Source of the DNA: Heliocidaris erythrogramma
Taxonomy: Eukaryota > Echinodermata > Echinoidea > Camarodonta > Echinometridae
Direction: 5' to 3'
Assembly (NCBI GenBank): GCA_025617745.1
Contig: CM046871.1
Span: forward strand, 36,953,751 to 37,017,750
Length of the DNA stretch: 64,000 bases
In this document: piece by piece, positions 22,529 to 64,000 of the stretch
Position numbering within the stretch: the first letter of the stretch is position 1
Layout of the letters: each line of letters begins with the position of its first letter
Position numbers and translations under genes: made by a program
Notes under the pieces: model-generated
What the model saw: the letters and a program-made list of their open reading frames with translations, nothing else
Database searches by the model: none
Told to the model about the DNA's origin: nothing

Positions 22529-24320
22529 CTAGACTTGAATTCGTCACGAAGACGAATTAGGTGGTCTGTCCTTAAATTGGCACGATCATGATTGTAATCA
22601 GGATGATCATATTAATGGGGAAATACTAAACAGAAGACAGGATGTCAAGAATGCCATGAATGGAGATGCTTCCTGAGGACAGGAATGTAGCAAAATGTGT
22701 ATCGGTCATTGTAAAATGATTATGGTGATGATAACGGTGATTATGATTATAATGACATAATGATGATGGCGATGATATAATAGTAGCGATGATGATCATG
22801 ATGGTGATGATAATAATGATGATGATACAGGATACTTGGGAGATTAACACCATAGCTCTAATACAGGACAGGAAATCACAATTTGCCATAGGGTTGTACA
22901 TAAACTACTGCACACTACTTTCTAATAGACATAATACGGAAAATAAGGCAGTTTATTACATGATTAGTGATTTTTTATGTTACAATAGTCGAAGAGGATG
23001 GTAAAATGACAGGCAAAAAGAAGCAAAAAAAAAAAAAAAATCGGCCCCGGGATCGAACCAGGTACCTTGACCATGGTAGTCATGTGCTTTACCGATAGAC
23101 CAAAATAATTCCCATAGAGATAACACGTAAACGAAAAACGGGATTCTCAAATCCCATTTTGTACTGAAAAATTGGGCATGATCCCGACATCTGATTAAAA
23201 ATTGGAGGGCTTACTAATAAAAGCTTATAGTCTCAGCTACAACATATTAAAATCTGGAAGGAAATAGACCAATAATAACTGAGATACTGCTCAGAGAACG
23301 ATGTCATGTAGATTCGTGATTCGAAAAAAAATCATCTTCCATAGACATAACACGCAAATAGGGAAAAATCTGACATGTCGTCTTTAATTGAAGATTTCAG
23401 TGTGATAACGTCATCAAAATGAAACATGATGGAAACTGATCTGGTAGAGAATTGTCTCAGCTATAACATATCAAAATTTGGAAGAAAATCGATCACCTAT
23501 TACTGAAATATTAGCAAATGAATACAAAAATGATGACGTCATTTTTTCAAAATCATTTTTTTGAGTTCATATGCAAATATGATGACGTTAGAACATGAGA
23601 TCGGCAAAAATTCTACATGATTTCAAATCTACAACTCACAGGCTTTCAGAATATGTAAAGAAATTGGGGGGTTTCCGTATATTCTGAGGAGCTATGGCGA
23701 ATTCTAGATGGGCATGTTTTTACCACTTTTTACATTAGAATGCCCATTGACGTGCGCACGAATTTGAAAGTTTGACGCGCGCGTACGACATTATGGAAGG
23801 TCGAGATTGACTGTAAATAGTTGGAAATTGTCAAGAATAGTGTCAGGAAGACAAAATATGCGAAAAAATGGCGTTTTTACGTTCTCTACGCGCTGTGTGC
23901 GCGCATAACGCGCGCACGGACGCGCACGGACAGAAAAAATTAAAATGCTTAAAATGTCCTGAACAATACTCTAATTTGATTAAAAAGAGATTTTGAGCAT
24001 TTTTAAATTTTGACGCGCGCGTACGTGCGCGTCATGATGTGCGCGCAAATTTTGATGACATTTTATGTTGTCCCTTGACCTGAAGTTAATGTATGTCAAA
24101 TATGGTTCATTTTTGATGACTCGTTATGAAGATATGATTGATAATGTGATATCACAAAATGGCGTCTGGATGACGTCACGATGACCTGATGACCTTGAAA
24201 TAGATACCCGAGCTTGATCTGATATGTCCTCATGACTGTAGAGATTTTGATAAAATTTGACTCAGCCGATATTGAGGAATCATGGCAACAAGAAAGTGGT
24301 GGAAAAATAAAAATAAATAA
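22529..24320 (-). repeat. Array unit 1 (type A, 1.79 kb)
   Basis: Starts CTAGACTTGAATTCGTCACG with the GACGAATT hairpin arm. It has a short GAT microsatellite (about 22720-22830), poly-A at 23025-23040, tRNA-like segment variant i at 23041-23102, CG-rich blocks at about 23880-23930 and 24012-24050, and an AT-rich end. Confidence 0.9.
23041..23102 (-). other. tRNA-like segment, variant i (representative; one per complete unit)
   Basis: On the reverse strand: A-box-like TGGTCTATCGGTAAAGCA, B-box-like GGTTCGATCCCGGGGCCGA, then an immediate run of T (the + strand poly-A), which would act as a pol III terminator. The D and anticodon stems do not pair properly, so this is a tRNA-derived segment and not a tRNA gene. 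Confidence 0.75.
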
Positions 24321-26841
24321 CTAGACATTGAATTCGTCACTGAAGACGAATTAGGTGATCTGTCTTGATCTTGATATTTTTGACGAAGACGAATGACAAA
24401 ATGATAATGTGAAAGGTGACGTTGATATCACGAGGACATTAATTATAATGAATCTAATCAAGATTTTTATGATTTCAGCCCTTTCCTAGCATTTTCAATT
24501 CGTAGGCTCTAGCTACTACATTATTAGTGAAATAGCGCCCCTTTGTTTCAATGGGACATAAAGTGTGTGAACATGAATTTTGGATGATTCGTGGATATCA
24601 TGACAATGATGATAATGATGTTGATGATAATCATCATCATCATCATGAATATCATCATGACAGTAATGATAATGATGTTGATGATAATCATGATAATGAT
24701 TATATCATGACAGTGATGATAATGATCTGGATGATAATCATCATCATCATGATGAATATCATCATGACAGTGATGATGACAATGATGTTGATGATCATTA
24801 TATCATCATGACAGTGATGATGATAATGTGGACGATAATCATTACCATCATCATCATGAATATTATGACAGTGATGGTGATACTGTGATGTTGATGATAA
24901 TCATGATAATCATGATGATGATGGTGATGATAATGTTGATAATCATGGTGATGATGATGATAATGATGATGATTGATGGTGATGATGATGCTGATGATAA
25001 TCATTATCATCATGAATATCATCATAGTGATGATGATAATGATGTTGATGATAATCATGATGATGATAATGATAATGGTGATGACCATGACTGAAATGAC
25101 ATTGACCATGCCAAATATGAAAGAAAGATGACATTTCGTGAAGAAGATACGATCAAGATGCGGGAACTTGACCTTATTAGGAGTGATGACTGACAAAAAT
25201 TTGAAGATAATTGACTAAGCCAATTTTGAGAAATTGTGATATCAAATAGGACGATTTGATATTGCAGGATACTTGGGAGATAAACCCCATAGCTCTAATA
25301 CACGACAGGGAATCAAAATTTCCATAGGGTTGTACACAAACTACTGCACATTACGTTCTAATAGACATAACATGGAAAATAACGCAGTTTATTACATGAT
25401 TTGTGATTGTTTATGTTATAATAGTCGAAGAGGATGGTAAAATAACAAGCAAAAACAAGCAAAAAAAGAAAAAAAAAATCGGCCCCGGGGATCGAACCAG
25501 GTACCTTGACCATGGTAGTCATGTGCTTTACCGATAGACCAGAATATTTCCCATAGAGATAGCACGTACACGAAAAACGGGATTCTAAAATCCCATTTTG
25601 TACTTAAAAATTGGGCATGATGCCGACATCTGATCAAAAATTGGAGACCACACTTGTAAAAGCTTATAGTCTCAGCTACAACATATTAAAATCTGGAAGA
25701 AAATAGAGCAAAAATAACTGAGATACTGCTCAGAGAACGATGTCATGTAGATTCATGATTCGAAAAAAAATCATCTTCCATAGACATAACACGCAAACAG
25801 GGAAAATTCTGACATGGCATCTTGCATTGAAAATTTCAGTATGATGACGTCATCAAAATGAAAAATGGTGGTGACTGATCTGGTAGAGAATTGTCTCAGC
25901 TATAACATATCAAAATTTGGAAGAAAATCGATCACCTATTACTGAAATATTAGCAAATGAATACAAAAATGATGACGTCATTTTTTCAAAATCATTTTTT
26001 TGAGTTCATATGCAAATATGATGACGTTAGAACATGAGATCGGCAAAAATTCTACATGAATTCAAATCTACAACTCCCAGGCTTTCAGAATATGTAAGGG
26101 AATTGGGGAGTTTCCGTGCATTCTGAGGAGCTATGGCGAATTCTAGATAGGCATGTTTTTACCACTTTTTAGATTAGAATTCCCATTGACGTGCGCACGA
26201 ATTTGAAAGTTTGATGCGCGCGTACGACATTATGGAAGGTCGAGAATGACTATAAATAGTTGGAAATTGTCAAGAATAGTATCAGGAAGATGAAACATGC
26301 GAAAAAATGGCGTTTTTACGTTCTCTACGCGCTGTGCGCGCGCATAACGCGCGCGCGGACGCGCACGGACGGAAAATTTTGAAATGCTTAAAATGTCCTG
26401 AACCATTCTCTAATTTGATTAAAAAGTGATTTTGAGCATTTTTAAATTTTGACGCGCGCGTACGTGCGCGTCATGATGTGTGCGCGGATTTTGAACACAT
26501 TTTATGTTGACCCTTGACGTGAAGTTAATGTATGTCAAATATGGCTCAATTTTGATGATTCGTTATGAAGATATGATTGATAATGTGATTTTACAAAATG
26601 GCGTCTAGATGACGTCATGATGACCTGATGACCATGAAAAAGATACCCGAGCTTGACCTTATATGACCTGATGACTTACTGAAATGTCATGAAATTTGAC
26701 TGAAAAGTTTTTGATATTTCGTGGAAACAAGAAAGGGGGGGAAAAATAAAAATAAATAAATAATAATAAAGAAAATTCTGACGAAATCAAGAGGTGATCT
26801 GTCAAATGACAGATCACCTAATAAATAAATAAATAAATAAA
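24321..26841 (-). repeat. Array unit 2 (type B, 2.52 kb) with a mini-palindrome at its end
   Basis: Starts CTAGACATTGAATTCGTCAC. Type B differs by an extra leader (about 24360-24590) and a long ATG/GAT/CAT microsatellite (about 24595-25090). The tRNA-like segment variant i is at 25479-25541. The body is as in type A. Ends with a mini-palindrome at 26769-26823. The type-B-specific part is nearly identical to units 14-17 in the other intron. Confidence 0.9.
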
Positions 26842-32448: not shown

Positions 32449-34261
32449 CTAGAATTTAATTCGTCATGAGGACGAATTAGGTGGTCTGTCTTTCAATTTG
32501 TACGATCATCATTGTAATCAGGATGATCATAATAATGGGGAAATACTAAACTGAAGATAGGATGTCAAGAATGCCATGAATGGAGATGGTTCTTGAGGAC
32601 GGGAATGTAGCAAAATGTGTAACGGTCATTGTAAAATGATTATGGTGATGATGATAATGGTGATTATGATGATTATAATGATATAATGATGATGGCGATG
32701 ATATAATAATAGCGATGATGATCATGACGGTGATGATAATAATGATGATGATACAGGATACTTGGGAGATTAACCCCACAGCTCTAATACAGGACAGGAA
32801 ATCACAATTTCCATAGGGTTGTACACAAACTACTGCACACTACTTTCTAATAGACATAATATGGAAAATAAGGCAGTTTATTACATGATTTGTGATTTTT
32901 TATGTTACAATAGTCGAAGAGGATGGTAAAATGACAGGCAAAAAGAAGCAAAAAAAAAAAAAAAAAAAATCGGCCCCGGGGATCGAACCAGGTACCTTGA
33001 CCATGGTAGTCATGTGCTTTACCGATAGACCAGAATATTTCCCATAGAGATAACACGTAAACGTAAACGGGATTCTCAAATCACATTTTGTACTGAAAAA
33101 TTGGGCATGATCCCGACATCTGATCAAAAATTGGAGACCACACTTGTAAAAGCTTATAGTCTCAGCTACAACATATTAAAATCTGGAAGAAAATAGACCA
33201 AAAATAACTGAGATACAGCTCAGAGAACGATGTCATGTAGATTCATGATTCGAAAAAAAATCATCTTCCATAGACATAACACGCAAATAGGGAAAATTCT
33301 GACATGGCATCTTGCATTGAAAATTTCAGTGTGATGACGTCATCAAAATGAAAAATGGTAGTGACTGATCTTGTAGAGAATTGTCTCAGCTATAACATAT
33401 CAACATTTGGAAGAAAATCGATCACCTATTACTGAAATATTATCAAATGAATACAAAAAAGATGACGTAATTTTGTCAAAATCATTTTTTTGAGTTCATA
33501 TGCAAATATGATGATGTTAGAAAATGCGATCGGCAAAAATTCTGCATGAATTCCAATCTACAACTCACAGGCTTTCATAATATGTACAGAAATTTGGGGG
33601 TTTCCTCGCGTTCTGACGAGCTATGGCGGATTCTAGATAGGCATGTTTTTACCACTTTTTACATTAGAATGCCCATTGACGTGCGCACGAATTTCAAAGT
33701 TTGACGCGCGCGTACGACATTATGGAAGGTCGAGATTGACTGTAAATAGTTGGAAATTGTCAAGAATAGTGTCAGGAAGACAAAATATGCGAACAACGGC
33801 GTTTTTACGTTCTCTACGCGCTGTGTGCGCGCATAACGCGCGCACGGACGCGCACGGACAGAAAAATTCAAAATGCTTAAAATGTCCTGGACAATACTCT
33901 AATTTGATGAAAAACTGATTTTAAGCATTTCTAAATTTTGACGCGCGCGTACGTGCGCGTCATGATGCGCGCGCGGATTTTGATGACATTTTATGTTGAC
34001 CCTTGACCTGAAGTTCATGTCTGTCAATTATGGTTCATTTTGGATGACTCGTTATGAAGATATGATTGATAATGTGATTTCACAAAATGGCGCCTGGATG
34101 ACGTCACGATGACCTGATGACCTTGATAATGATAGGGGCACTTGATCTGCTATGGCCTGATAATTGACGAAAATCTGAAGAAAATTGATCGAGTTGATTT
34201 TGAGAATTCACGGTCACAAGAAATAAGTTGAAAATAAAGAATAAATAATAATAAATAATAA
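32449..34261 (-). repeat. Array unit 6 (type A, 1.81 kb)
   Basis: Starts CTAGAATTTAATTCGTCATG (ATGAGG hairpin loop). tRNA-like variant i at 32970-33031. The end differs from units 4-5 (AATAAGTTGAAAATAAAG). Confidence 0.9.
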
Positions 34262-34839: not shown

Positions 34840-36070
34840 AAATATTTCCCATAGAGATAACACGTAAACGAAAACGGGATTCTCAAATCACATTTTGTAC
34901 TGAAAAATTGGGCATGATCCCGACATCTGATCAAAAATTGGAGGGCTTACTACTGAAAGCTTATAGTCTCAGCTACAACATATTAAAATCTGGAAGAAAA
35001 TAGACCAAAAATAACTGAGATACTGCTCAGAGAACGATGTCATGTAGATTCATGATTCGAAAAAAAATCATCTTCCATAGACATAACACGCAAATAGGGA
35101 AAATTATGACATGGCATCTTGCATTGAAAATTTCAGTGTGATGACGCCATCAAAATGAAAAATGGTAGCTATTGATCTTGTAGAGAATTGTCTCAGCTAT
35201 AACATATCAAAATTTGGAAGAAAATCGATCACCTATTACTGAAATATTAGCAAATGAATACAAAAATGATGACGTCATTTTTTCAAAATCATTTTTTTGA
35301 GTTCATATGCAAATATGATGATGTTAGAACATGAGATCGGCAAAAATTCTACATGAATTCAAATTTACAACTCCCAGGCTTTCAGAATATGTAAAGGAAT
35401 TGGGGGGTTTCCTCGCATTCTGAGGAGCTATGGCGAATTGTAGATGGGCATGTTTTTACCACTTTTTTCATTAGAATGCCCATTGACGTGCGCACGAATT
35501 TGAAAGTTTGATGCGCGCGTACGACATTATGGAAGGTCGAGAATGACTGTAAATAGTTGGAAATTGTCAATAATAGCATCAGGAAGATGAAACATGCGAA
35601 AAAATGGCGTTTTTACGTTCTCTACGCGCTGTGCGCGCGCATAACGCGCGCGCGGACGCGCACGGACAGAAAATATTAAAATGCGTAAAATGTCCTGAAC
35701 CATACCCTAATTTGATTAAAAAGTCATTTGGAGCATTTTTAAATTTTGACGCGCGCGTACGTGCGCGTCATGATGCGCGCGCGGATTTTGATGACATTTT
35801 ATGTCGACCCTTGACCTGAAGTTAATGTATGTCAAATATGGTTCATGTTTGATGACTCGTTATGAAGATATGATTGATAATGTGATTTCACAAAATGGCG
35901 CCTGGATGACGTCACGATGACCTGATGACCTTGATAATGATAGGAGCACTTGATCTGCTATGGCCTGAAAATTGACGAAAATCTGAAGAAAATTGATCGA
36001 GTTGATTTTGAGAATTCACGGTCACAAGAAATAAGTTGAAAATAAAGAATAAATAATAATAATAAATAAT

Positions 36071-36370
36071 AAAGAAAATTCTGACGAAATTAAGAGGTGA
36101 TCTGTCGATACCGACAGACCACCTAATAAAGAAAATTCTGACGAAATTAAGAGGTGATCTGTCGATACCGACAGACCACCTAATAAAGAAAATTCTGACG
36201 AAATTAAGAGGTGGTCTGTCGACTACGACAGACCACCTAATAAATAATAATAATAATAAAGAAAATTCTGACGAAATTAATAGGTGATCTGTCATGACAG
36301 ATCACCTAATAAAGAAAGAAAATTCTGACGAAATTAAGAGGTGGTCTGTCGACTACGACAGACCACCTAA
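36071..36370. repeat. Cluster of five about 55-bp mini-palindromic elements
   Basis: Each reads AAAGAAAATTCTGACGAAAT, then a hairpin of AGGTG(A/G)TCTGTC and its complement GACAG(A/G)(C/T)CACCT around a few bases, then AATAA. Six further copies: 26769, 41798, 43661, 43719, 52328 and 59727. They occur only at unit junctions, on the right of a unit's AT-rich end. Confidence 0.92.
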
Positions 36371-36377
36371 TAATAAA

Positions 36378-45806: not shown

Positions 45807-45947
45807 GTCAGTTTCTTCTTTTTCTCCAAATTGGTTATTAAAGAAAACAGATACACATGTAGACCTATGCAGTCCGTGTCACAAGACCAAACTGAATGGG
45901 AGTGTCTGACTGACTTTGCAAAAAAAATTACCAAAAGCAAAAAGAAA

Positions 45948-47990: not shown

Positions 47991-48900
47991 AAATCACAAA
48001 TATGGCAAATAATGTATCACTAGAAACTGGGAAGCTTACAGATGGCAATCGTATAAGTTTTATGTCAACTGCGTATCTGATGATTATAAAAACAACACAA
48101 ATAAAAGCTCTTCTCAGCATCTGGAATATCCGAGGATTCGCCAGAAATATAGCGATGTTTTGATGTCGTCACACAATTAGGGATCGATCCTGCTTAAGCA
48201 GACGACGTCCTATAATGAATGAACGTAATTGCAATGCAATTATTTATCAAATTATAAAGAGTTTGATGTATTTAAACATGACCTTATTTCACACCATTAT
48301 AAAGGGAAAGTGAAACGGATTCTGATAGCTAAAACCGTTTGATTGTAAATACACAGGAGAAGGGTCAATGATCAATGAAATAAACCCCACTTTCAAATTG
48401 AAAAGCCCTCCGAATAATAGCAGGATGGTATTCGTTCCTCTTGAAACGCCGAACATGCCCCGGTGCAGCAGCTGAAAATACAATGGCGTCTTATTTTGTT
48501 TACAAGTGACTGATTCCTTTATTTTTTAAACGCTGCACTTTTCATCAAAATAATACCATACACGAAGTTAAGAGTGAGGCAACAGACTAACATTAAGACT
48601 AGTGAAGGAAGAGAAATAAGTGAAGAGGAGATGACAAAATAGGCTCTGAAAAATGTGTAAGATGTTATGGGACATCTTCTGCTTAGACAGGACTGGTCCA
48701 TGTGTGTCGTCACATATCTCAGCAGCGTTCGAGGAGTTCTTCAGCTGCTATATCGGGGGTTGTATTTTACCGTTTTATAATTGATAATAATCACTACTTC
48801 AAATGTTTCCAAGCGTTGAATTTGGATAACCTTGTTTAATTTATGCCATGTATGCAATAATAAGTATTAAGCCAATATTTAAAATCATCAGAGTTCTACT
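47991..48900. other. Unique sequence interrupting array 2; no gene seen
   Basis: About 900 bp unlike any array unit, without a convincing ORF on either strand. It could be an insertion or a remnant of the original intron. Confidence 0.6.
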
Positions 48901-50285
48901 TTAACCATGCCAAATATGAAAGAGAAATCACATTTCGTTATGAAGATACAACCATAAGTTGATTTGCACAAAATGGCGCTTAGATGATGTCACGATAACC
49001 TGATGACCATGAAAAAGATGTGGGAACTTGACCTTATTAGGACCGATGACTGACGAAAATTTGAAGATAATTGAGTGAGCCAATTTTGAGAATTTGTGAT
49101 ATCAATAGGATTAATGATATTGCAGGATAACTTTAATACACTTCAGGAATTCAGATTTTCCATAAGGTTATACATAAACTACTGCACACTACTTTCTAAC
49201 AGACATAACATGCAAAATAAGGCATTTGATCAAAAATTGGAGACCACATTTATAAAAGCTTATAGTCTCAGCTATAACATACTAAAATCTGGAAGAAAAT
49301 AGACCCAAAACAACTGAGATACAGCTCAGAGAACAATGTCATGTAGATTCATGATTTTTTAAAAAAAGGTCATCTTCCATAGACATACAACACGCAAATA
49401 GGGAAAATTCTGACATGGCATCTTTATTTGAAAATTTCTCTATAATGACGTCATCAAAATGAAAAATGGTGGTGACCGATTTTGCAGGAAATTGCCTCAG
49501 CTACAACATATTAAAATCTGGGCGAGAAACGACCAATAATTACGAATCTAGAGCCAAATTTGTATAAATGTGATGACGTCAAAACATGAAAAATGGAAAT
49601 TTTGAATTCTGCCGCCATTTTGATGACGTCATAATGTTTATAAGGGTCAAATGATACATGAAATGACATCCATGATTCATACCCTAACTGATGATGATGG
49701 GGGGGGGGGGGGGGGGGGGGGGAGGAGTTGTCAACGGGCTATCTAACAAGCTACAGTGAATTTTGTATAGGCATGTTTTTGCCCATATATGGCCTATAGT
49801 GAGGGATCACGCCCGCGCGTGCTGCAAAATTTGACGGACGATAATTTCCTTCTTAATTGTCGTAGAAAGATAGAAAAGGTATCAAATTGCTCAGAATTTT
49901 GTGTTCTATGAGGGCACACAAGAAAAAATGGCGATTTTAGGCTCCGTCATGGTGGAATACGGGAAAACGCGCACGCACCCGTGTACGCGCGCAAATTTTG
50001 AAATGCTCAAAATGACCTGAAACGTGTGCAGACTTGATCCTACGTGATTTTGAGCATTTTTAAATTTTGACGCGCGCGTACGCGCACGTCCTGACCTTTA
50101 GATGACCTGTGAGGACGTGACTTGATGACCCGTCATGTGAACTTCATGTGATGCGAATATAGTTGATTTTTGATGATCGATTATGAAGATATAATCGATC
50201 TTGTAAATTTACAAAATGGCGTCTTGATGACGTCACGATGACATGATGACCTTGTGCTTTTCACAGTCAAGTTTTCGTACAAAAT
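48901..50285 (-). repeat. Old, divergent array unit
   Basis: Recognisable unit wording (CCATGCCAAATATGAAAGAG, GATGACGTCATCAAAATG.. pieces, GACGCGCGCGTACGCGCACG) in the usual order, but with many substitutions and no tRNA-like segment or poly-A. It contains a run of 24 G at 49699-49722. Confidence 0.8.
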
Positions 50286-50561
50286 TTTATGGCTGTGCCA
50301 AATTTCAAAAAGATTCAAGATTTAGTTTTTAAGTATTGGGCCTAGCAAAAAATAGTGGTTTTGGTGGTTTTTGGAGAATTAATATGAAATTTCCATTTTT
50401 TCATTTGTCAATGGGAGGAAAAAAAGGAAAAATGTGAAGAATCTTTGAATTGGAAGTAAAATGGTCCCACATTTCCTGCAAATCTGAACCATTTTTTTCG
50501 TTGTAGATGGCAGGATGGAGGAGCTATTAAGGAAAAGATGGACAAGAAAACGACGTCGACA

Positions 50562-50596
<35 letters not shown>

Positions 50597-50850
50597 AATT
50601 GAGCTACGAATCTGCTTTTTGGTGTGCATGATGTTTGGTCAAGATGTGATGATTGTGGAAAGATTCAGAAAGATCGACCAACTTGTTTAGGAGTTATCGG
50701 GGTTGGCATTTTTCATTGTTGTGCGCGCACTGACGCGCGAACATAAGCGTACGCGCGCGTCTAATTTTCTGAAATTGACCGGATCAGTATTAGCTTTAAT
50801 CCTGCCAAATATGAGTGAGAAATGACTTTCCGTTATGAAGATATGACCAT
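50286..50850. other. Divergent segment between old units, with 30-A tract
   Basis: No gene. A run of about 30 A at 50565-50594, then a small piece with TACGCGCGCGTC and GTTATGAAGATATGACCATG that recalls the array unit. Confidence 0.55.
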
Positions 50851-52381
50851 GAACTAATACACGACAGGGAATCAAAATTTCCATAGGGTTGTACACAAAC
50901 TACTGGAGACTACTTTCCAATGGAAATAACATGCAAAATAAGGCAGTTTATTGCATGGTTTGTGATTGTGTATGTTATAATAGTCGAACAAGATCGTAAA
51001 ATGAAAGGCAAAAAGAAGCAAAAAAAATTTTTTTTAATGGACGCACCGGGGATCGAACCTGGGTCACCGGAATGGGAGGCAAGTGCTTTGACCAATAGAC
51101 CAAAATATTTCCCATAGAGATAACACGTAAACGAAAAACGGGATTCTCAAATCCCATTTGGTAGTTCAAAATTGGGCATAATCCCGACATCTGTTCAAAA
51201 ATTGGAGACAACATTTATGAAAGCTTATAGTCTCAGCTATAACATATTAAAATCTGGAAGGAAATAGACCAAAAATAACTGAGATACTGCCCAGAGAACG
51301 ATGTCATGTAGATTCATGAGTCGAAAAAAAATCATCTTCCATAGACATAACACGCAAATAGGGGAAATTCTGACATGGCGTCTTTAATTGAAAATTTCAC
51401 TATGATGCCTTCATCAAAATGAAAAATGCTGGTCCTGATCTGGTAGAGAATTGTCTCAGCTATAACATATCAAAGTTTGGAAGAAAATCGACTACCTATT
51501 ACTGAAATATTATCACATGAACACAAAAATGATGACGTCATTCTTTTCAAAATGAGAGTTTTGAGTTCATAGGCAGATACGATGACGTTAGAACATGAGA
51601 TCGGCAAAAATTCTACATGAATTCAAATCCACAACTCACAGGCTTCCAGAATATGTACAGGAATTTGGGGGTATCCGTGCATTCTGACGAGCTATGGCGA
51701 ATTCTAGATAGGCATGTTTTCACCACTTTTTACATTAGAATGCCCATTGACGCGCCCACGTAATTGAAAATTTGACGCGCGCGTGTGGCATTATGGAAGG
51801 TCGAGAATGACTGTAAATAGTTGGAAATTGTCAACAATAGTATCAGCAAGACAAACCATGCGAAAAAACGGAGTTTTTACGTTCTCTACGCGCTGTGTGC
51901 GCGCATAACGCGAGGACAAACGCGCACGGACGGAAAATTTTGAAATGCTCAAAATGTCCTGAACCATACTCTAATTTGATTAAAAAGTGATTTTGAGCAT
52001 TTTTAAATTTTGACGCGCGCGTACGTGCGCGTCATGATGCGTGCGCGGATTTTGATGGCATTTTATGTTGACCCTTGACCTGAAGTTGATGTGTGTCAAA
52101 TATGGTTCATTTTTGATGACTCGTTATGAAGATATGATTGATAATGTGATTTCACAAAATGGCGCCTGGATGACGTCACGATGACCTGATGACCTTGAAA
52201 AAGATAGGGGAACTTGATCTGATATGGTCTGATAATTGACAAAAATTTGAAGAAAATTGATCGAGTTGATTTTGAGAAATTGTGTTCACAAGAAAGTGGT
52301 GGAAAAATAAAAATAAAGAATAAAGAATAAAGAAAATTCTGACGAAATTAAAAGGTGATCTGTCGTTGACAGACCACCTAA
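50851..52381 (-). repeat. Array unit lacking its start (variant ii tRNA-like segment) plus mini-palindrome
   Basis: Begins in mid-unit (CTAATACACGACAGGGAATC) without CTAG or microsatellite. tRNA-like variant ii at about 51038-51102. Normal end with a mini-palindrome at 52328-52380. Confidence 0.85.
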
Positions 52382-54827
52382 CTAGACATTGAATTCGTCA
52401 CTGAAGACGAATTAGGTGATCTGTCTTGATCTTGATATTTTTGACGAAGACGAATGACAAAATGATAATGTGAAAGGTGACGTTGATATCACGAGGACAT
52501 TAATTATAATGAATCTAATCAAGATTTTTATGATTTCAGCCCTTTCCTAGCATTTTCAATTCGTAGGCTCTAGCTACTACATTATTAGTGAAATAGCGCC
52601 CCTTTGTTTCAATGGGACATAAAGTGTGTGAACATGAATTTTGGATGATTCGTGGATATCATGACAATGATGATAATGATGTTGATGATAATCATCATCA
52701 TCATCATGAATATCATCATGACAGTAATGATAATGATGTTGATGATAATCATGATAATGATTATATCATGACAGTGATGATAATGATGTGGATGATAATC
52801 ATCATCATCATGATGAATATCATCATGACAGTGATGATGACAATGATGTTGATGATCATTATATCATCATGACAGTGATGATGATAATGTGGACGATAAT
52901 CATTACCATCATCATCATGAATATTATGACAGTGATGGTGATACTGTGATGTTGATGATAATCATGATAATCATGATGATGATGGTGATGATAATGTTGA
53001 TAATCATGGTGATGATGATGATAATGATGATGATTGATGGTGATGATGATGCTGATGATAATCATTATCATCATGAATATCATCATAGTGATGATGATAA
53101 TGATGTTGATGATAATCATGATGATGATAATGATAATGGTGATGACCATGACTGAAATGACATTGACCATGCCAAATATGAAAGAAAGATGACATTTCGT
53201 GAAGAAGATACGATCAAGATGCGGGAACTTGACCTTATTAGGAGTGATGACTGACAAAAATTTGAAGATAATTGACTAAGCCAATTTTGAGAAATTGTGA
53301 TATCAAATAGGACGATTTGATATTGCAGGATACTTGGGAGATAAACCCCATAGCTCTAATACACGACAGGGAATCAAAATTTCCATAGGGTTGTACACAA
53401 ACTACTGCACATTACGTTCTAATAGACATAACATGGAAAATAACGCAGTTTATTACATGATTTGTGATTGTTTATGTTATAATAGTCGAAGAGGATGGTA
53501 AAATAACAAGCAAAAACAAGCAAAAAAAAAAAAAAAAAAAAAAATCGGCCCCGGGGATCGAACCAGGTACCTTGACCATGGTAGTCATGTGCTTTACCGA
53601 TAGACCAGAATATTTCCCATAGAGATAGCACGTACACGAAAAACGGGATTCTAAAATCCCATTTTGTACTTAAAAATTGGGCATGATGCCGACATCTGAT
53701 CAAAAATTGGAGACCACACTTGTAAAAGCTTATAGTCTCAGCTACAACATATTAAAATCTGGAAGAAAATAGAGCAAAAATAACTGAGATACTGCTCAGA
53801 GAACGATGTCATGTAGATTCATGATTCGAAAAAAAATCATCTTCCATAGACATAACACGCAAACAGGGAAAATTCTGACATGGCATCTTGCATTGAAAAT
53901 TTCAGTATGATGACGTCATCAAAATGAAAAATGGTGGTGACTGATCTGGTAGAGAATTGTCTCAGCTATAACATATCAAAATTTGGAAGAAAATCGATCA
54001 CCTATTACTGAAATATTAGCAAATGAATACAAAAATGATGACGTCATTTTTTCAAAATCATTTTTTTGAGTTCATATGCAAATATGATGACGTTAGAACA
54101 TGAGATCGGCAAAAATTCTACATGAATTCAAATCTACAACTCCAGGCTTTCAGAATATGTAAGGGAATTGGGGAGTTTCCGTGCATTCTGAGGAGCTATG
54201 GCGAATTCTAGATAGGCATGTTTTTACCACTTTTTAGATTAGAATTCCCATTGACGTGCGCACGAATTTGAAAGTTTGATGCGCGCGTACGACATTATGG
54301 AAGGTCGAGAATGACTATAAATAGTTGGAAATTGTCAAGAATAGTATCAGGAAGATGAAACATGCGAAAAAATGGCGTTTTTACGTTCTCTACGCGCTGT
54401 GCGCGCGCATAACGCGCGCGCGGACGCGCACGGACGGAAAATTTTGAAATGCTTAAAATGTCCTGAACCATTCTCCAATTTGATTAAAAAGTGATTTTGA
54501 GCATTTTTAAATTTTGACGCGCGCGTACGTGCGCGTCATGATGTGTGCGCGGATTTTGATGACATTTTATGTTGACCCTTGACGTGAAGTTAATGTATGT
54601 CAAATATGGCTCAATTTTGATGATTCGTTATGAAGATATGATTGATAATGTGATTTTACAAAATGGCGTCTAGATGACGTCATGATGACCTGATGACCAT
54701 GAAAAAGATACCCGAGCTTGACCTTATATGACCTGATGACTTACTGAAATGTCATGAAATTTGACTGAAAAGTTTTTGAGATTTCGTGGAAACAAGAAAG
54801 GGGGGAAAAATAAAAATAAATAAATAA
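52382..54827 (-). repeat. Array unit 14 (type B, 2.45 kb)
   Basis: Long microsatellite at about 52655-53150. tRNA-like variant i at 53545-53607. Nearly identical to unit 2, which lies 28 kb away across exons 11-13. Confidence 0.9.
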
Positions 54828-57272
54828 CTAGACATTGAATTCGTCACTGAAGACGAATTAGGTGATCTGTCTTGATCTTGATATTTTTGACGAAGACGAA
54901 TGACAAAATGATAATGTGAAAGATGACGTTGATATCACGAGGACATTAATTATAATGAATCTAATCAAGATTTTTTATGATTTCAGCCCTTTCCTAGCAT
55001 TTTCAATTCGTAGGCTCTAGCTACTACATTATTAGTGAAATAGCGCCCCCTTTGTTTCAATGGGACATAAAGTGTGTGAACATGAATTTTGGATGATTCG
55101 TGGATATCATGACAATGATGATAATGATGTTGATGATAATCATCATCATCATCATGAATATCATCATGACAGTAATGATAATGATGTTGATGATAATCAT
55201 GATAATGATTATATCATGACAGTGATGATAATGATGTGGATGATAATCATCATCATCATGATGAATATCATCATGACAGTGATGATGACAATGATGTTGA
55301 TGATCATTATATCATCATGACAGTGATGATGATAATGTGGACGATAATCATTACCATCATCATCATGAATATTATGACAGTGATGGTGATACTGTGATGT
55401 TGATGATAATCATGATAATCATGATGATGATGGTGATGATAATGTTGATAATCATGGTGATGATGATGATAATGATGATGATTGATGGTGATGATGATGC
55501 TGATGATAATCATCATCATCATGAATATCATCATAGTGATGATGATAATGATGTTGATGATAATCATGATGATGATAATGATAATGGTGATGACCATGAC
55601 TGAAATGACATTGACCTTAGCCATGCCAAATATGAAAGAAAGATGACATTTCGTGAAGAAGATACGATCAAGATGCGGGAACTTGACCTTATTAGGAGTG
55701 ATGACTGACAAAAATTTGAAGATAATTGACTACGCCAATTTTGAGAAATTGTGATATCAAATAGGACGATTTGATATTGCAGGATACTTGGGAGATAAAC
55801 CCCATAGCTCTAATACACGACAGGGAATCAAAATTTCCATAGGGTTGTACACAAACTACTGCACATTACGTTCTAATAGACATAACATGGAAAATAACGC
55901 AGTTTATTACATGATTTGTGATTGTTTATGTTATAATAGTCGAAGAGGATGGTAAAATAACAAGCAAAAACAAACAAAAAAAAAAATCGGCCCCGGGGAT
56001 CGAACCAGGTACCTTGACCATGGTAGTCATGTGCTTTACCGATAGACCAGAATATTTCCCATAGAGATAGCACGTACACGAAAAACGGGATTCTAAAATC
56101 CCATTTTGTACTTAAAAATTGGGCATGATGCCGACATCTGATCAAAAATTGGAGACCACACTTGTAAAAGCTTATAGTCTCAGCTACAACATATTAAAAT
56201 CTGGAAGAAAATAGACCAAGAATAACTGAGATACTGCTCAGAGAACGATGTCATGTAGATTCATGATTCGAAAAAAAATCATCTTCCATAGACATAACAC
56301 GCAAATAGGGAAAATTCTGACATGGCATCTTGCATTGAAAATTTCAGTATGATGACGTCATCAAAATGAAAAATGGTGGTGACTGATCTGGTAGAGAATT
56401 GTCTCAGCTATAACATATCAAAATTTGGAAGAAAATCGATCACCTATTACTGAAATATTAGCAAATGAATACAAAAATGATGACGTCATTTTTTCAAAAT
56501 CATTTTTTTGAGTTCATATGCAAATATGATGACGTTAGAACATGAGATCGGCAAAAATTCTACATGAATTCAAATCTACAACTCCCAGGCTTTCAGAATA
56601 TGTAAGGAATTGGGGAGTTTCCGTGCATTCTGAGGAGCTATGGCGAATTCTAGATAGGCATGTTTTTACCACTTTTTACATTAGAATTCCCATTGACGTG
56701 CACACGAATTTGAAAGTTTGATGCGCGCGTACGACATTATGGAAGGTCGAGAATGACTATAAATAGTTGGAAATTGTCAAGAATAGTATCAGGAAGATGA
56801 AACATGCGAAAAAATGGCGTTTTTTTACGTTCTCTACGCGCTGTGCGCGCGCATAACGCGCGCGCGGACGCGCACGGACGGAAAATTTTGAAATGCTTAA
56901 AATGTCCTGAACCATACTCTAATTTGATTAAAAAGTGATTTTGAGCATTTTTAAATTTTGACGCGCGCGTACGTGCGCGTCATGATGTGTGCGCGGATTT
57001 TGAACACATTTTATGTTGACCCTTGACGTGAAGTTAATGTATGTCAAATATGGCTCAATTTTGATGATTCGTTATGAAGATATGATTGATAATGTGATTT
57101 TACAAAATGGCGTCTAGATGACGTCATGATGACCTGATGACCATGAAAAAGATACCCGAGCTTGACCTTATATGACCTGATGACTTACTGAAATGTCATG
57201 AAATTTGACTGAAAAGTTTTTGAGATTTCGTGGAAACAAGAAAGGGGGGGAAAAATAAAAATAAATAAATAA
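54828..57272 (-). repeat. Array unit 15 (type B, 2.45 kb)
   Basis: Microsatellite at about 55100-55595. tRNA-like variant i at 55987-56049. Shares private changes with unit 16 (GCGCCCCCTTTG, ATTGACCTTAGCCATGCC). Confidence 0.9.
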
Positions 57273-59814
57273 CTAGACATTGAATTCGTCACTGAAGACG
57301 AATTAGGTGATCTGTCTTGATCTTGATATTTTTGACGAAGACGAATGACAAAATGATAATGTGAAAGATGACGTTGATATCACGAGGACATTAATTATAA
57401 TGAATCTAATCAAGATTTTTTATGATTTCAGCCCTTTCCTAGCATTTTCAATTCGTAGGCTCTAGCTACTACATTATTAGTGAAATAGCGCCCCCTTTGT
57501 TTCAATGGGACATAAAGTGTGTGAACATGAATTTTGGATGATTCGTGGATATCATGACAATGATGATAATGATGTTGATGATAATCATCATCATCATCAT
57601 GAATATCATCATGACAGTAATGATAATGATGTTGATGATAATCATGATAATGATTATATCATGACAGTGATGATAATGATGTGGATGATAATCATCATCA
57701 TCATGATGAATATCATCATGACAGTGATGATGACAATGATGTTGATGATCATTATATCATCATGACAGTGATGATGATAATGTGGACGATAATCATTACC
57801 ATCATCATCATGAATATTATGACAGTGATGGTGATACTGTGATGTTGATGATAATCATGATAATCATGATGATGATGGTGATGATAATGTTGATAATCAT
57901 GGTGATGATGATGATAATGATGATGATTGATGGTGATGATGATGCTGATGATAATCATCATCATCATGAATATCATCATAGTGATGATGATAATGATGTT
58001 GATGATAATCATGATGATGATAATGATAATGGTGATGACCATGACTGAAATGACATTGACCTTAGCCATGCCAAATATGAAAGAAAGATGACATTTCGTG
58101 AAGAAGATACGATCAAGATGCGGGAACTTGACCTTATTAGGAGTGATGACTGACAAAAATTTGAAGATAATTGACTACGCCAATTTTGAGAAATTGTGAT
58201 ATCAAATAGGACGATTTGATATTGCAGGATACTTGGGAGATAAACCCCATAGCTCTAATACACGACAGGGAATCAAAATTTCCATAGGGTTGTACACAAA
58301 CTACTGCACATTACGTTCTAATAGACATAACATGGAAAATAACGCAGTTTATTACATGATTTGTGATTGTTTATGTTATAATAGTCGAAGAGGATGGTAA
58401 AATAACAAGCAAAAACAAACAAAAAAAAAAATCGGCCCCGGGGATCGAACCAGGTACCTTGACCATGGTAGTCATGTGCTTTACCGATAGACCAGAATAT
58501 TTCCCATAGAGATAGCACGTACACGAAAAACGGGATTCTAAAATCCCATTTTGTACTTAAAAATTGGGCATGATGCCGACATCTGATCAAAAATTGGAGA
58601 CCACACTTGTAAAAGCTTATAGTCTCAGCTACAACATATTAAAATCTGGAAGAAATAGACCAAGAATAACTGAGATACTGCTCAGAGAACGATGTCATGT
58701 AGATTCATGATTCGAAAAAAAATCATCTTCCATAGACATAACACGCAAATAGGGAAAATTCTGACATGGCATCTTGCATTGAAAATTTCAGTATGATGAC
58801 GTCATCAAAATGAAAAATGGTGGTGACTGATCTGGTAGAGAATTGTCTCAGCTATAACATATCAAAATTTGGAAGAAAATCGATCACCTATTACTGAAAT
58901 ATTAGCAAATGAATACAAAAATGATGACGTCATTTTTTCAAAATCATTTTTTGAGTTCATATGCAAATATGATGACGTTAGAACATGAGATCGGCAAAAA
59001 TTCTACATGAATTCAAATCTACAACTCCCAGGCTTTCAGAATATGTAAGGGAATTGGGGAGTTTCCGTGCATTCTGAGGAGCTATGGCGAATTCTAGATA
59101 GGCATGTTTTTACCACTTTTTACATTAGAATTCCCATTGACGTGCACACGAATTTGAAAGTTTGATGCGCGCGTACGACATTATGGAAGGTCGAGAATGA
59201 CTGTAAATAGTTGGAAATTGTCAAGAATAGTATCAGGAAGATGAAACATGCGAAAAAATGGCGTTTTTACGTTCTCTACGCGCTGTGCGCGCGCATAACG
59301 CGCGCGCGGACGCGCACGGACGGAAAATTTTGAAATGCTTAAAATGTCCTGAACCATACTCTAATTTGATTAAAAAGTGATTTTGAGCATTTTTAAATTT
59401 TGACGCGCGCGTACGTGCGCGTCATGATGTGTGCGCGGATTTTGATGACATTTTATGTTGACCCTTGACCTGAAGTTCATGTGTGTCAAATATGGTTCAT
59501 TTTTGATGACTCGTTATGAAGATATGATTGATAATGTGATTTCACAAAATGGCGCCTGGATGACGTCACGATGACCTGATGACCTTGAAATAGATACCCG
59601 AGCTTGACTTGATAGGTCCTCATGACTGTAGAGATTTTGATAAAAATTGACTCAGCCGATATTGAGGAATCATGGTAACAAGAAAGTGGTGGAAAAAATA
59701 AAAATAAATAATAAAGAAATAATAAAGAAAGAAAATTCTGACGAAATTAAGAGGTGGTCTGTCGACTACGACAGACCACCTAATAAACTAGAATTTAATT
59801 CGTCATGAAGACGA
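57273..59814 (-). repeat. Array unit 16 (type B, mini-palindrome and a remnant start at its end)
   Basis: tRNA-like variant i at 58432-58493. Nearly identical to unit 15 up to its last part, where it changes to a type-A-style ending. It ends with a mini-palindrome (59727-59783) and a 27-bp remnant of a type-A start (59788-59814). Confidence 0.9.
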
Positions 59815-62255
59815 ACTAGACATTGAATTCGTCACTGAAGACGAATTAGGTGATCTGTCTTGATCTTGATATTTTTGACGAAGACGAATGACAAAATGAT
59901 AATGTGAAAGATGACGTTGATATCACGAGGACATTAATTATAATGAATCTAATCAAGATTTTTATGATTTCAGCCCTTTCCTAGCATTTTCAATTCGTAG
60001 GCTCTAGCTACTACATTATTAGTGAAATAGCGCCCCCTTTGTTTCAATGGGACATAAAGTGTGTGAACATGAATTTTGGATGATTCGTGGATATCATGAC
60101 AATGATGATAATGATGTTGATGATAATCATCATCATCATCATGAATATCATCATGACAGTAATGATAATGATGTTGATGATAATCATGATAATGATTATA
60201 TCATGACAGTGATGATAATGATGTGGATGATAATCATCATCATCATGATGAATATCATCATGACAGTGATGATGACAATGATGTTGATGATCATTATATC
60301 ATCATGACAGTGATGATGATAATGTGGACGATAATCATTACCATCATCATCATGATATTATGACAGTGATGGTGATACTGTGATGTTGATGATAATCATG
60401 ATAATCATGGGGATGATAATGTTGATAATCATGGTGATGATGATGATAATGATGATGATTGATGGTGATGATGATGCTGATGATAATCATCATCATCATG
60501 AATATCATCATAGTGATGATGATAATGATGTTGATAATCATGATGATGATAATGATAATGGTGATGACCATGACTGAAATGACATTGACCTTAGCCATGC
60601 CAAATATGAAAGAAAGATGACATTTCGTGAAGAAGATACGATCAAGATGCGGGAACTTGACCTTATTAGGAGTGATGACTGACAAAAATTTGAAGATAAT
60701 TGACTAAGCCAATTTTGAGAAATTGTGATATCAAATAGGACGATTTGATATTGCAGGATACTTGGGAGATAAACCCCATAGCTCTAATACACGACAGGGA
60801 ATCAAAATTTCCATAGGGTTGTACACAAACTACTGCACATTACGTTCTAATAGACATAACATGGAAAATAACGCAGTTTATTACATGATTTGTGATTGTT
60901 CATGTTATAATAGTCGAAGAGGATGGTAAAACTAACAAGCAAAAACAAGCAAAAAAAAAAAAAAAAAAAATCGGCCCCGGGATCGAACCAGGTACCTTGA
61001 CCATGGTAGTCATGTGCTTTACCGATAGACCAGAATATTTCCCATAGAGATAGCACGTACACGAAAAACGGGATTCTAAAATCCCATTTTGTACTTAAAA
61101 ATTGGGCATGATGCCGACATCTGATCAAAAATTGGAGACCACACTTGTAAAAGCTTATAGTCTCAGCTACAACATATTAAAATCTGGAAGAAAATAGACC
61201 AAAAATAACTGAGATACTGCTCAGAGAACGATGTCATGTAGATTCATGATTCGAAAAAAAATCATCTTCCATAGACATAACACGCAAATAGGGAAAATTC
61301 TGACATGGCATCTTGCATTGAAAATTTCAGTATGATGACGTCATCAAAATGAAAAATGGTGGTGACTGATCTGGTAGAGAATTGTCTCAGCTATAACATA
61401 TCAAAATTTGGAAGAAAATCGATCACCTATTACTGAAATATTAGCAAATGAATACAAAAATGATGACGTCATTTTTCAAAATCATTTTTTTGAGTTCATA
61501 TGCAAATATGATGACGTTAGAACATGAGATCGGCAAAAATTCTACATGAATTCAAATCTACAACTCCCAGGCTTTCAGAATATGTAAGGGAATTGGGGAG
61601 TTTCCGTGCATTCTGAGGAGCTATGGCGAATTCTAGATAGGCATGTTTTTACCACTTTTTACATTAGAATTCCCATTGACGTGCACACGAATTTGAAAGT
61701 TTGATGCGCGCGTACGACATTATGGAAGGTCGAGAATGACTGTAAGTAGTTGGAAATTGTCAAGAATAGTATCAGGAAGATGAAACATGCGAAAAAATGG
61801 CGTTTTTACGTTCTCTACGCGCTGTGCGCGCGCATAACGCGCGCGCGGACGCGCACGGACGGAAAATTTTGAAATGCTTAAAATGTCCTGAACCATACTT
61901 AATTTGATTAAAAAGTGATTTTGAGCATTTTTAAATTTTGACGCGCGCGTACGTGCGCGTCATGATGTGTGCGCGGATTTTGATGACATTTTATGTTGAC
62001 CCTTGACCTGAAGTTCATGTGTGTCAAATATGGTTCATTTTTGATGACTCGTTATGAAGATATGATTGATAATGTGATTTCACAAAATGGCGCCTGGATG
62101 ACGTCATGATGACGTGATGACCTTGAAAATGATTTATGAGCTAGATCTTATATGACCTGATGACTGACGGAAATGTCATGAAAATTGACTGAGAACTTTT
62201 TGAGATTTCGTGGAAACAAGAAAGGGGGGGGGGGAAAATAAAAATAAATAAATAA
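59815..62255 (-). repeat. Array unit 17 (type B, 2.44 kb)
   Basis: As unit 15 with small deletions in the microsatellite. tRNA-like variant i at 60971-61032. Confidence 0.9.
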
Positions 62256-64000
62256 CTAGACATTGAATTCGTCACTGAAGACGAATTAGGTGATCTGTCT
62301 TGATCTTGATATTTTTGACGAAGACGAATGACAAAATGATAATGTGAAAGATGACGTTGATATCACGAGGACATTAATTATAATGAATCTAATCAAGATT
62401 TTTATGATTTCAGCCCTTTCCTAGCATTTTCAATTCGTAGGCTCTAGCTACTACATTATTAGTGAAATAGCGCCCCTTTGTTTCAATGGACATAAAGTGT
62501 GTGAACATGAATTGTTGGATGATTCGTGGATATCATGACAATGATGATAATGATGTTGATGATAATCATCATCATCATCATGAATATCATCATGACAGTA
62601 ATGATAATGATGTTGATGATAATCATGATAATGATTATATCATGACAGTGATGATAATGAGGATGTGGATGATGATCATCATCATCATGATGAATATCAT
62701 CATGACAGTGATGATGACAATGATGTTGATGATCATTATATCATCATGACAGTGATGATGATAATGTGGACGATAATCAATACCATCATCATGAATATTA
62801 TACAGCGATGGTGATACTGTGATGTTGATGATTATCATGATAATCATGATGATGGTGATGATAATGTGATAATCATCGTGATGATGATGATAATGATGAT
62901 AATCATCATCATCATGAATATCATCATAGTGATGATTGATAATGATGTTGATTGATAATCATGATGATGATAATGATAATGGTGATGACCATGACTGAAA
63001 TGACATTGACCTTAAGCCATGCCAAATATGAAAGAAAGATGACATTTCGTGAAGAAGATACGATCAAGATGCGGGAATTGACCTTATTAGGAGTGATGAC
63101 TGACAAAAATTGAAGATAATTGACTAAGCCATTTTGAGAAATTGTGATATCAAATAGGACGATTTGATATTGCAGGATACTTGGGAGATAAACCCCATAG
63201 CTCTAATACACGACAGGGAATCAAAATTTCCATAGGGTTGTACACAAACTACTGCACATTACGTTCTAATAGACATAACATGGAAAATAACGCAGTTTAT
63301 TACATGTTGTGATTGTTTATTGTTATAATAGTCGAAGAGGATGGTAAAATAACAAGCAAAAAAAAAAAAAAAAAAAAAAAAATCGGCCCCGGGATCGAAC
63401 CAGGTACCCTTGACCATGGTAGTCATGTGCTTTACCGATAGACCAGAATATTTCCATAGAGATAGCACGTACACGAAAAACGGGATTCTAAAATCCCATT
63501 TTGTACTTAAAAAATTGGGCATGATGCCGACATCTGATCAAAAATTGGAGACCACACTTGTAAAAGCTTATAGTCCGTGCTACAACATATTAAAATCTGG
63601 AGAAAATAGACCAAGAATAACTGAGATACTGCTCAGAGAACGATGTCATGTAGTAGAGCTCATGATTCGAAAAAAAATCATCTTCCATAGACATAACCGC
63701 AAATTGGGAAAATTCTGACATGGCATTTGCATTGAAAATTTCAGTATGATGACGTCATCAAATGAAAAATGGTGGTAACTGATCTGTAGAGAATTGTCTC
63801 AGCTATAAACATATCAAAATTTCGGAAGAAATCGATCACCTATTACTGAAATATTAGCAAATGAATACAAAAATGATGACGTCCTTTTTTCAAAATCATT
63901 TTTTGAGTTCATATGCAAATATGATGACGTTTAGAACATGAGATCGGCAAAAATTCTACATGAATTCAAATCTACAACTCCCAGGCTTTCAGAATATGTA
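62256..64000 (-). repeat. Array unit 18 (type B, cut by the window end)
   Basis: Same order as the other type-B units but with many single-base insertions and deletions. tRNA-like variant i at about 63383-63444. Confidence 0.9.

Follow-up and report, generated by a model that had tools for sequence, protein, structure and literature searches.

Canonical Helitrons (Helitron1) are defined, in part, by a 5′ TC, insertion between A and T, and a 3′ CTRR that follows a hairpin, and circle multimers are one of the explanations for tandem Helitrons. Part of this definition is also given in a study of fungal elements (PMC5148889). The closest counterparts of the repeats analyzed here are the HINEs and DINE-1 elements of Metaseiulus, Culex and Drosophila which, as described in the portions of PMC4067079 used here, carry 12–15-bp subterminal inverted repeats (subTIRs) 2–4 nt from the 5′ end, a subTIR ~38–60 nt from the 3′ end and a palindrome 8–35 nt from the 3′ end. 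The section of that paper on clusters proposes bypassed termination or adjacent insertion; nested self-insertion is not among the proposals in that section. Cg_HINE of the Pacific oyster, as far as the relevant parts of PMC7492417 go, possesses a subTIR, a complementary inverted repeat, a microsatellite, a 3′ palindrome, a preference for TT and an association with tandem repeats, all of which are shared by the element described below. The FoHeli Helitron2 elements of Fusarium oxysporum have asymmetric terminal inverted repeats, again as in the present element, and for these fungal elements self-insertion, resulting in several 5′ termini and a single 3′ terminus, has already been proposed in print (PMC5148889, in part). 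A term search of PMC8268682 for nested or tandem Helitrons gave nothing.

Two arrays in the window

The window, a 64,000-nt stretch of the genome of Heliocidaris erythrogramma (contig CM046871.1, positions 36,953,751 to 37,017,750), contains 18 exact heads consisting of CTAG, a 5–6-nt spacer and a hairpin, all on the plus strand (22538–62287), compared to 0.01 hairpins expected from shuffled sequences, among which 18 were reached in 0 of 100. The CTAG and spacer precede the hairpin in all 18 units and in one orientation, exactly as stated in the original prediction, which was made from the sequence alone. The spacing of 1.79–2.54 kb agrees with the predicted 1.8–2.5-kb units, except that one interval measures 4.1 kb and another 4.6 kb. 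The 4.6-kb interval (47744–52381) comprises one diverged copy plus a repeat of ~0.9 kb that is distinct from the units and common to loci L070 and L119, so that the possibility of this interval being a less-deleted autonomous copy is not supported.

The head-to-tail arrangement predicted for positions 22529–64000 is also observed, except that there are two arrays, with host DNA between them (43.77–45.95 kb). Array 1 (22529–43771, minus strand) consists of 11 units, nested or head-to-tail, with the 5′ end at 43771 and the 3′ CTAG at 22529, both flanks having been inspected. Array 2 (45948–64000, minus strand) contains seven unit heads and is incomplete because the window ends where the contig (C19) ends, at 37,017,750. 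The host DNA includes an exon with a GPS motif (44672–44791, plus strand; PF01825, E = 5.8e-9) and a sequence interpreted as the exon encoding transmembrane helix 1 of an adhesion GPCR (45697–45813, plus strand; no Pfam hit on its own). Given the GPS-domain exon between them, both arrays probably lie within introns of a single gene, in agreement with the predicted intragenic location. Gene capture between the arrays was considered and rejected, the DNA there being host exon sequence.

Element termini and affiliation

Read on the minus strand, the element has the structure 5′-TT-AGGTGRTCTGTC-loop-GACAGAYCACCT-spacer-T-rich strip-body-GAT microsatellite-GACAGAYCACCT-hairpin-N5/6-CTAG-3′, with the CTAG beside TT. 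The 3′ terminus is exemplified by unit 1 (22529–22570, minus strand), where the subTIR GACAGACCACCT is followed by an 8-bp-stem hairpin, a 5-nt spacer, CTAG and the host TT (fold of −7.2 kcal/mol, z −3.1). The 5′ terminus, or 5′ module, is exemplified by unit 10 (41821–41852, minus strand), in which TTAGGTGGTCTGTC, a loop and GACAGACCACCT, that is, the subTIR and its complement, form an exact joint with the CTAG of unit 11; pairing of the subTIR with its own complement forms a 13-bp 5′ hairpin (−16 kcal/mol, z −8.6). The subTIR TTAGGTGRTCTGTC is found at the 5′ end and again in the 3′ region, and in all 10 two-ended copies the same G/A variant is present at both ends (eight G, two A). The inverted repeats (AATTAGGTGGTCTGTC inside the 3′ hairpin, TTAGGTGGTCTGTC at the 5′ end) are strictly subterminal; the claim that terminal inverted repeats are lacking thus holds for the extreme ends, but it overlooked the subterminal repeats along with the 5′ hairpin, and the TT target likewise went unnoticed. 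The GAT microsatellite lies inside the hairpin end as predicted, in unit 1 ~190 nt from the CTAG end (22716–22826), and occupies ~480 bp in the 2.4-kb units. The number of 5′ modules varies among units: some have none, and unit 7 carries a stack of five at its 5′ end (36067–36377, minus strand). One example of a module-less junction is at 24304–24320 (minus strand), where nothing separates the CTAG of unit 2 from the unit 1 T-rich strip (AAAATAAAAATAAATAA when read on the plus strand).

This organization fits copies of a HINE, that is, a non-autonomous Helentron (Helitron2-class rolling-circle transposon), an element type that is already known. The subTIR is followed by its complement, a microsatellite is present and the target is TT or T-rich, all as in the HINEs of PMC4067079 (in the portions used), for which no clear target change is described; in the present element no change beyond a possible TT duplication was seen. 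The corresponding distances are 2 nt from the 5′ end for the 5′ subTIR, ~42 nt from the 3′ end for the 3′ subTIR, counted from the outer edge of this subTIR, and 9–10 nt from the 3′ end for the palindrome. Unlike these HINEs, the present element ends in CTAG, which the same portions of PMC4067079 assign to the Helitron-like proto-Helentron of Phytophthora. Rolling-circle class and a CTRR (CTAG) after the 3′ hairpin are shared with Helitron1; however, the element has TTAGG in place of the 5′ TC, carries subTIRs and targets TT instead of a site between A and T. With the subTIRs, the 5′ hairpin, the 5′ TT and the TT target, it fits a HINE and not a canonical Helitron, so that the predicted non-autonomous, Helitron-class origin is supported, although the type within that class is different.

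Genome-wide copies and target preference

Across the genome, 4030 exact 3′ ends were detected, compared to 0 in the control, and TT adjoins 3798 of these, in accord with the prediction that the unit end lies next to T. Among the first 100 heads listed, 51 are isolated; the solitary dispersed copies that were sought to follow up the original prediction thus exist, and the repeat is not a pure satellite. In 20 isolated copies, a manual selection from the list for contig C1, TT directly follows CTAG without exception. The 5′ end was located in seven of these copies (four with the strict pattern, three with changed modules), reading TTAGG in each case, and was not found in the other 13 within the 401 bases fetched. 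Loci L007, L008 and L069 are consistent with a TT target and TTAGG ends. When unit 1 was used as the query, 36 of the 41 matches listed, the window's own included (best 40 of 5137 candidates scored), were 99–100% identical and spread over 16 contigs. The family is abundant and shows signs of recent activity, and is thus well suited as a test case.

Reading of the copy flanks revealed no target repeat beyond TT or T-rich overlap, in line with the predicted absence of an obvious target duplication. No paralogous empty site was found for two copies tested, the flanks of both being unique; hence, a 2-bp TT duplication is possible and, in the flanks read, is indistinguishable from a TT borne by the element.

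Probable nested self-insertion and the growth of the arrays

In our view, these observations are explained best, and with good confidence, by HINE copies that formed arrays through nested insertion into the T-rich strip, followed by tandem duplication of parts. A new copy, after an inferred single-stranded rolling-circle step, would land at a TT of the T-rich strip of an older copy, just inside its 5′ module; the older module would end up stacked outside the new one, and the older body would follow the new CTAG with no module of its own. The T-richness of the strip is confined to one strand, so nested copies would share direction, giving rise to head-to-tail arrays. Exact end-to-end joints (CTAG|TTAGG; 445 genome-wide) would arise where a copy inserted at the TT that terminates an older one, and portions of certain arrays would have been subsequently amplified by ordinary tandem duplication.

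Several lines of evidence bear on this scheme. Genome-wide, exact patterns, which miss mutated sites, identify 746 module-less junctions, 1055 stacked modules (stacks accordingly outnumber junctions) and 1005 cases of an intact strip plus module. On C1, a second 5′ module is present in 15 of the 23 bodies behind a module-less junction, compared to 9 of the 62 others (Fisher p = 1.2e-5); put differently, the 85 intact strip-module bodies divide into 15 that combine a junction one body away with a second module, 8 with the junction only, 9 with the second module only, and 53 with neither. In nine clusters with one junction, one stack and no other junction, these two are separated by 1.79–2.40 kb, which is one body. 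The lengths of the left and right strip remnants are inversely correlated (n = 9; Pearson −0.90, Spearman −0.72; permutation p = 0.006), in a test on nine pairs that was carried out once the trend was already apparent by eye and that deals with microsatellites that change length; the remnants in the nine clusters sum to 26.3 (sd 4.2), compared to 20.9 (sd 5.9) in 26 intact strips. Listed neighbours up to 12 kb apart have the same orientation in 42 cases and the opposite one in 0, the respective numbers for neighbours farther apart being 31 and 26; other listings include two opposite pairs, namely the junctions C1:35835768 (minus) and C1:35845332 (plus), 9.6 kb apart, and C1:27069630 (plus) with the head at 27072159 (minus), 2.5 kb apart. 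Within the window, a 28-bp remnant of the 3′ hairpin end of another element (59788–59815, minus strand), split at AA/TT, where the CTAG end of unit 17 intervenes, is read as a nested insertion whose other side is off the contig. The bookkeeping is imperfect: array 1 has 11 bodies and 9 modules, and junctions and stacks are equal in number in only 17 of the 38 C1 clusters with either. Matching of unit types to module types in array 1, attempted by eye, was only partial and was kept out of the evidence.

Local expansion of a satellite via unequal crossing-over after a single insertion, with the element nature being ancient history, is an improbable alternative. It would account for the near-identical neighbours u14 and u15 (99.3%), for the six of 17 units whose closest relative in the window is a neighbour (u3, u4, u5, u6, u13 and u16) and for the regular spacing of 2543 bp at C2:165–176 kb and 7771 bp at C1:695–705 kb. 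However, 51 of the first 100 heads listed are isolated, unit 1 has its 99–100% matches on other contigs (among the best 40 of 5137 scored), adjacent window units are on average barely more similar than non-adjacent ones (93.4% vs 92.1%), and the closest pairs, u1–u9 (99.3%) and u2–u14 (99.7%, across the two arrays), are 16 and 28 kb apart, respectively. Furthermore, unequal crossing-over predicts neither the pairing of junctions with stacks one body away nor complementary strip lengths. A classical satellite is tandem only and locally homogenised, which this family is not. Nevertheless, the regular spacings show tandem duplication, and the above-chance closeness of neighbours indicates that duplication or conversion also operates locally. 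The arrays thus look to have been built largely through nested self-insertion of a recently active element into the T-rich strip between the 5′ hairpin and the body, to which ordinary tandem duplication contributes, and not through the conversion of one old element into a satellite, which amends the original prediction.

Less probable still are rolling-circle concatemers, produced by overrun of the terminator or repeated rounds on a circle and inserted at once as a multimer. Such multimers would yield exact joints like the 445 detected here, and bypassed termination is the published account of tandem Helitrons (PMC4067079, in the portions used), but their units are expected to be identical, whereas divergence among the window units reaches 13%, and the two exact joints located there, the only ones compared, link unlike units (u10–u11, 89.6%; u13–u14, 88.3%). 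Nor would a circle be expected to yield joints that lack the module together with a corresponding excess of modules.

The possibility that the AAAATAAAAATAAATAA end is the poly(A)-like tail of a SINE-like retroposon on the plus strand, with arrays generated by template jumping, can be practically dismissed: despite the A-rich end and the tRNA-like B box that 18 units carry, the A-rich strip lies internally, with complete copies running on into the 5′ module, the tRNA-like boxes are on the strand opposite to an A-tail, the subTIRs and hairpins match at both ends with no target duplication seen, and complete solitary copies already contradict this origin.

Under nested insertion, we are slightly inclined to view the strand-asymmetric T-rich strip as the element's own landing pad, such that polarised nested arrays would self-assemble without unequal crossing-over to start them and module stacks would record the order of insertion; composite copies bearing more than one 5′ module might also be able to move in their own right. 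If true, this would be a route from transposon to satellite in which unequal crossing-over is not needed at the start, and nesting would explain the mostly uniform direction of tandem Helentron copies. The several 5′ termini and single 3′ terminus proposed for FoHeli are the signature of the present module stacks; the respective portions of PMC5148889 present a proposal based on a few fungal cases, whereas here hundreds of junctions and a quantitative test are available, and the T-rich strip, a further difference, would account for the constant orientation. In Cg_HINE (PMC7492417, in part), short repeats are tandem within one element, whereas here entire 1.8–2.5-kb elements are nested or joined and inner copies lack the 5′ module. 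Internal bookkeeping of modules and module-less bodies, which can be counted in any genome, helps to tell nested insertion from duplication.

Helentrons in the genome and other features of the units

The genome encodes Helentron proteins (Rep, PIF1 and Exo_endo_phos), with a Helentron-type RGS motif at 29 of 30 loci, and these Rep-helicase-endonuclease Helentrons could mobilise the HINE in trans. The predicted autonomous Rep/helicase element with the same last 50 bp was not found at the few loci examined: five Rep loci from the 103 matches listed, namely three Helentron loci, each represented also by a portion of another copy, and two additional Rep loci, lack the HINE end in Rep orientation in their 3′ regions, which is not a firm negative given that the Helentron 3′ ends are undelimited. 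The 3′ region of L072 contains HINE copies of a diverged subfamily which, being downstream of Rep and opposite to it, are read as separate insertions. The remaining HINE-end matches at Rep loci have 3–4 errors and were taken as chance.

In the single unit examined in this respect (32449–34261), the longest frame is 97 aa, as befits a HINE-type element devoid of coding capacity. A- and B-box-like words occur, and ARAGORN detected no tRNA genes in the window units. With E up to 5, no hammerhead or other ribozyme among the listed Rfam rows reached the gathering score, and the miRNA-like Rfam matches within the arrays fall mostly in the GAT microsatellite.

Structure of the repeat units and of the two arrays

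An 8-bp-stem hairpin occurs 18 times in the window, on the plus strand between 22,529 and 62,287 and each time preceded by CTAG, and the corresponding units (u1 to u18, numbered along the plus strand) come in two sizes: about 1.8 kb, where the GAT region spans about 110 bp, and about 2.4 kb, where it spans about 480 bp. The original prediction that these repeats derive from a non-autonomous Helitron-class element is borne out by the combination of CTAG and hairpin in the 18 units and by 4030 dispersed matches to the exact 3′ end in the 1.06-Gb genome (reversed control, 0). The family is of the HINE type (non-autonomous Helentrons), and the best explanation of its arrays, in our judgment a probable one, is that they largely consist of nested self-insertions, supplemented by tandem duplication.

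Read on the element (minus) strand, a complete copy starts with TT-AGGTGRTCTGTC-loop-GACAGAYCACCT (the 5′ module, i.e., a subterminal inverted repeat [subTIR], a loop and its own complement) and a short spacer, followed inward by a T-rich strip (TTTATTTATTTTTATTTTT and similar), the body and the GAT microsatellite, and closes with GACAGAYCACCT, the 3′ hairpin, 5–6 nt, CTAG and then TT. Terminal inverted repeats had been described as lacking, which holds for the extreme ends, but subterminal inverted repeats are present near both ends. The fold of the u10 5′ module is a hairpin of 13 bp (-16 kcal/mol, z -8.6); that of the u1 3′ end has -7.2 kcal/mol (z -3.1). The B-box-like word GGTTCGATCCC is found at 18 places in the arrays, always on the element strand (e.g., 23059, 25498 and 63401), and in the three stretches inspected is preceded by the A-box-like TGGTCTATCGG and followed by a T run. 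ARAGORN called no tRNA; these words may be a promoter for RNA polymerase III or a captured fragment of tRNA origin.

The units form two arrays. Array 1 (22,529–43,771) begins with CTAG after host sequence ending in GACAAA and ends with the last 5′ module, which itself closes in CACCTAA and borders on host sequence; array 2 starts at 45,948 and is cut off where contig C19, and with it the window, stops. Because the arrays are separated by an exon with a GPS motif (PF01825, E 5.8e-9) and by a stretch which on reading, without a Pfam match, resembles transmembrane helix 1 of an adhesion GPCR, both probably lie, in the same orientation, within introns of one gene. The 37-Mb contig stops inside the array and the host gene (64000), where either the assembly breaks or the chromosome ends. 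A distinct repeat, about 0.9 kb long (47971–48881), is matched in two other loci, L070 and L119; the L119 copy is bordered by TTAA, and its ends are inverted. The window further contains a sequence of 186 bp present as a 98% tandem duplicate (9569–9931; 94% match in locus L071) and a reverse transcriptase fragment read as a LINE remnant (3238–3732, minus strand; PF00078, E 1.9e-17).

Dispersal, target and age

TT adjoins 3798 of the 4030 exact 3′ ends. The first 100 listed places all lie on contig C1; 51 of these ends are isolated, being more than 12 kb from any other on the list, a count based on ends with the exact pattern. In 20 hand-picked isolated C1 copies, for which short end pieces were fetched, CTAG is invariably followed by TT; the 5′ end was located in seven (four by the strict pattern, three with changed modules) and was not found within the 401 bases fetched in the other 13. 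All seven 5′ ends read TTAGG, as do those in loci L007, L008 and L069, and the variable base of the subTIR is identical at the 5′ and 3′ sides in each of the 10 copies with both ends (8 G, 2 A). No flank repeat beyond TT or T-rich overlap was seen on reading the flanks of the copies examined. Searches with two joined empty sites gave no match apart from the flanks themselves, and these flanks consist of unique DNA. With scoring applied to the best 40 of 5137 candidates, 36 of the 41 listed matches to u1, the window's own included, show 99–100% identity. These lie on 16 contigs, a sequence pattern which suggests that the element was recently active; the HINE-type family was probably mobile in the recent past.

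Probable nested insertion and added tandem duplication

A rival reading is that the arrays are a satellite grown locally by unequal crossing-over. We regard this as improbable, even though the closest relative is a neighbor for 6 of the 17 window units. Mean identity is similar for adjacent (93.4%) and non-adjacent (92.1%) units, and the closest pairs include distant ones, u1–u9 (99.3%) and, across the two arrays, u2–u14 (99.7%), which speaks for separate arrivals of the units. The neighbor-relative counts, the likeness of u14 and u15 (99.3%) and regular spacings elsewhere nevertheless show that ordinary tandem duplication also contributes: spacing is about 2543 bp at five places in C2:165326–175558 and 7771 bp in C1:694878–704564, and both of these arrays probably grew in this way.

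Among listed ends, neighbors at most 12 kb apart share their orientation in 42 of 42 cases, and those farther apart are divided into 31 same versus 26 opposite. This bias would be explained by a TT target combined with a strip whose T-richness is confined to one strand. The junction listings hold two orientation exceptions (C1:35.84 Mb and C1:27.07 Mb) which, with the neighbor-relative count, slightly lower our confidence in nested insertion and make the satellite reading a little less improbable.

Junction types were counted genome-wide with exact patterns. The 5′ module is followed by CTAG within 30 bases in 792 cases (445 of them exact end-to-end joints), the strip is followed by CTAG within 30 bases without a module in 746, a module directly by a second module in 1055, and strip plus module is uninterrupted in 1005. 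Insertion into the strip would pair each module-less junction with a surplus module one body away. Among 85 C1 bodies with intact strip and module, 15 have a junction and a second module, 8 a junction only, 9 a second module only and 53 neither (Fisher p 1.2e-5, odds ratio 11). Counts of junctions and of stacks (modules in series) correlate over 45 C1 junction clusters (Spearman 0.57), but of the 38 clusters with at least one of the two, only 17 balance exactly; self-insertion could also yield single bodies with two modules and a surplus of stacks over junctions.

Nine clusters hold one junction and one stack and no other junction, at a spacing of 1.79–2.40 kb, that is, one body. In these nine pairs, a small sample in which the trend was noticed by eye before the script was run, one remnant of the split strip is longer where the other is shorter (Pearson -0.90, Spearman -0.72; the spread of their sum has a permutation p of 0.006), and they add up to 26.3 (sd 4.2), the new copy's AA included, versus 20.9 (sd 5.9) in 26 unbroken strips. 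This complementarity works as an internal empty-site test. In the window, a 28-bp remnant at 59,788, the other side of which lies beyond the contig end, looks like one copy interrupted between AA and TT by a second one. The end-to-end arrangement of units recurs at L072:3455–7001, in a HINE subfamily whose similarity to the window units is only about 75%.

Relationship to known elements and possible partners

As described for HINEs (PMC4067079), the 5′ subTIR begins 2–4 nt inside the element and the 3′ subTIR about 38–60 nt inside it, a palindrome lies 8–35 nt from the 3′ terminus, microsatellites are present, and targets are T-rich, having two or more T on either side; the window element agrees in the position and kind of these features. 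The same source gives CTAG with a 5′ TT, as here, for a Phytophthora proto-Helentron, and oyster HINEs show the same modules (PMC7492417). For Fusarium Helitron2 elements, self-insertion resulting in several 5′ termini and one 3′ terminus has been proposed (PMC5148889).

The genome yields 103 listed Rep-domain matches. The Helentron-type RGS motif is found in 29 of 30 Rep loci examined, and a PIF1 helicase and an endonuclease in both C-terminal parts scanned; the HINE end in Rep orientation is absent from the 3′ regions of the five Rep loci examined. The Helentron-type Rep frames in loci L040–L068 belong to several families and are unusually long, with up to 4199 aa open.
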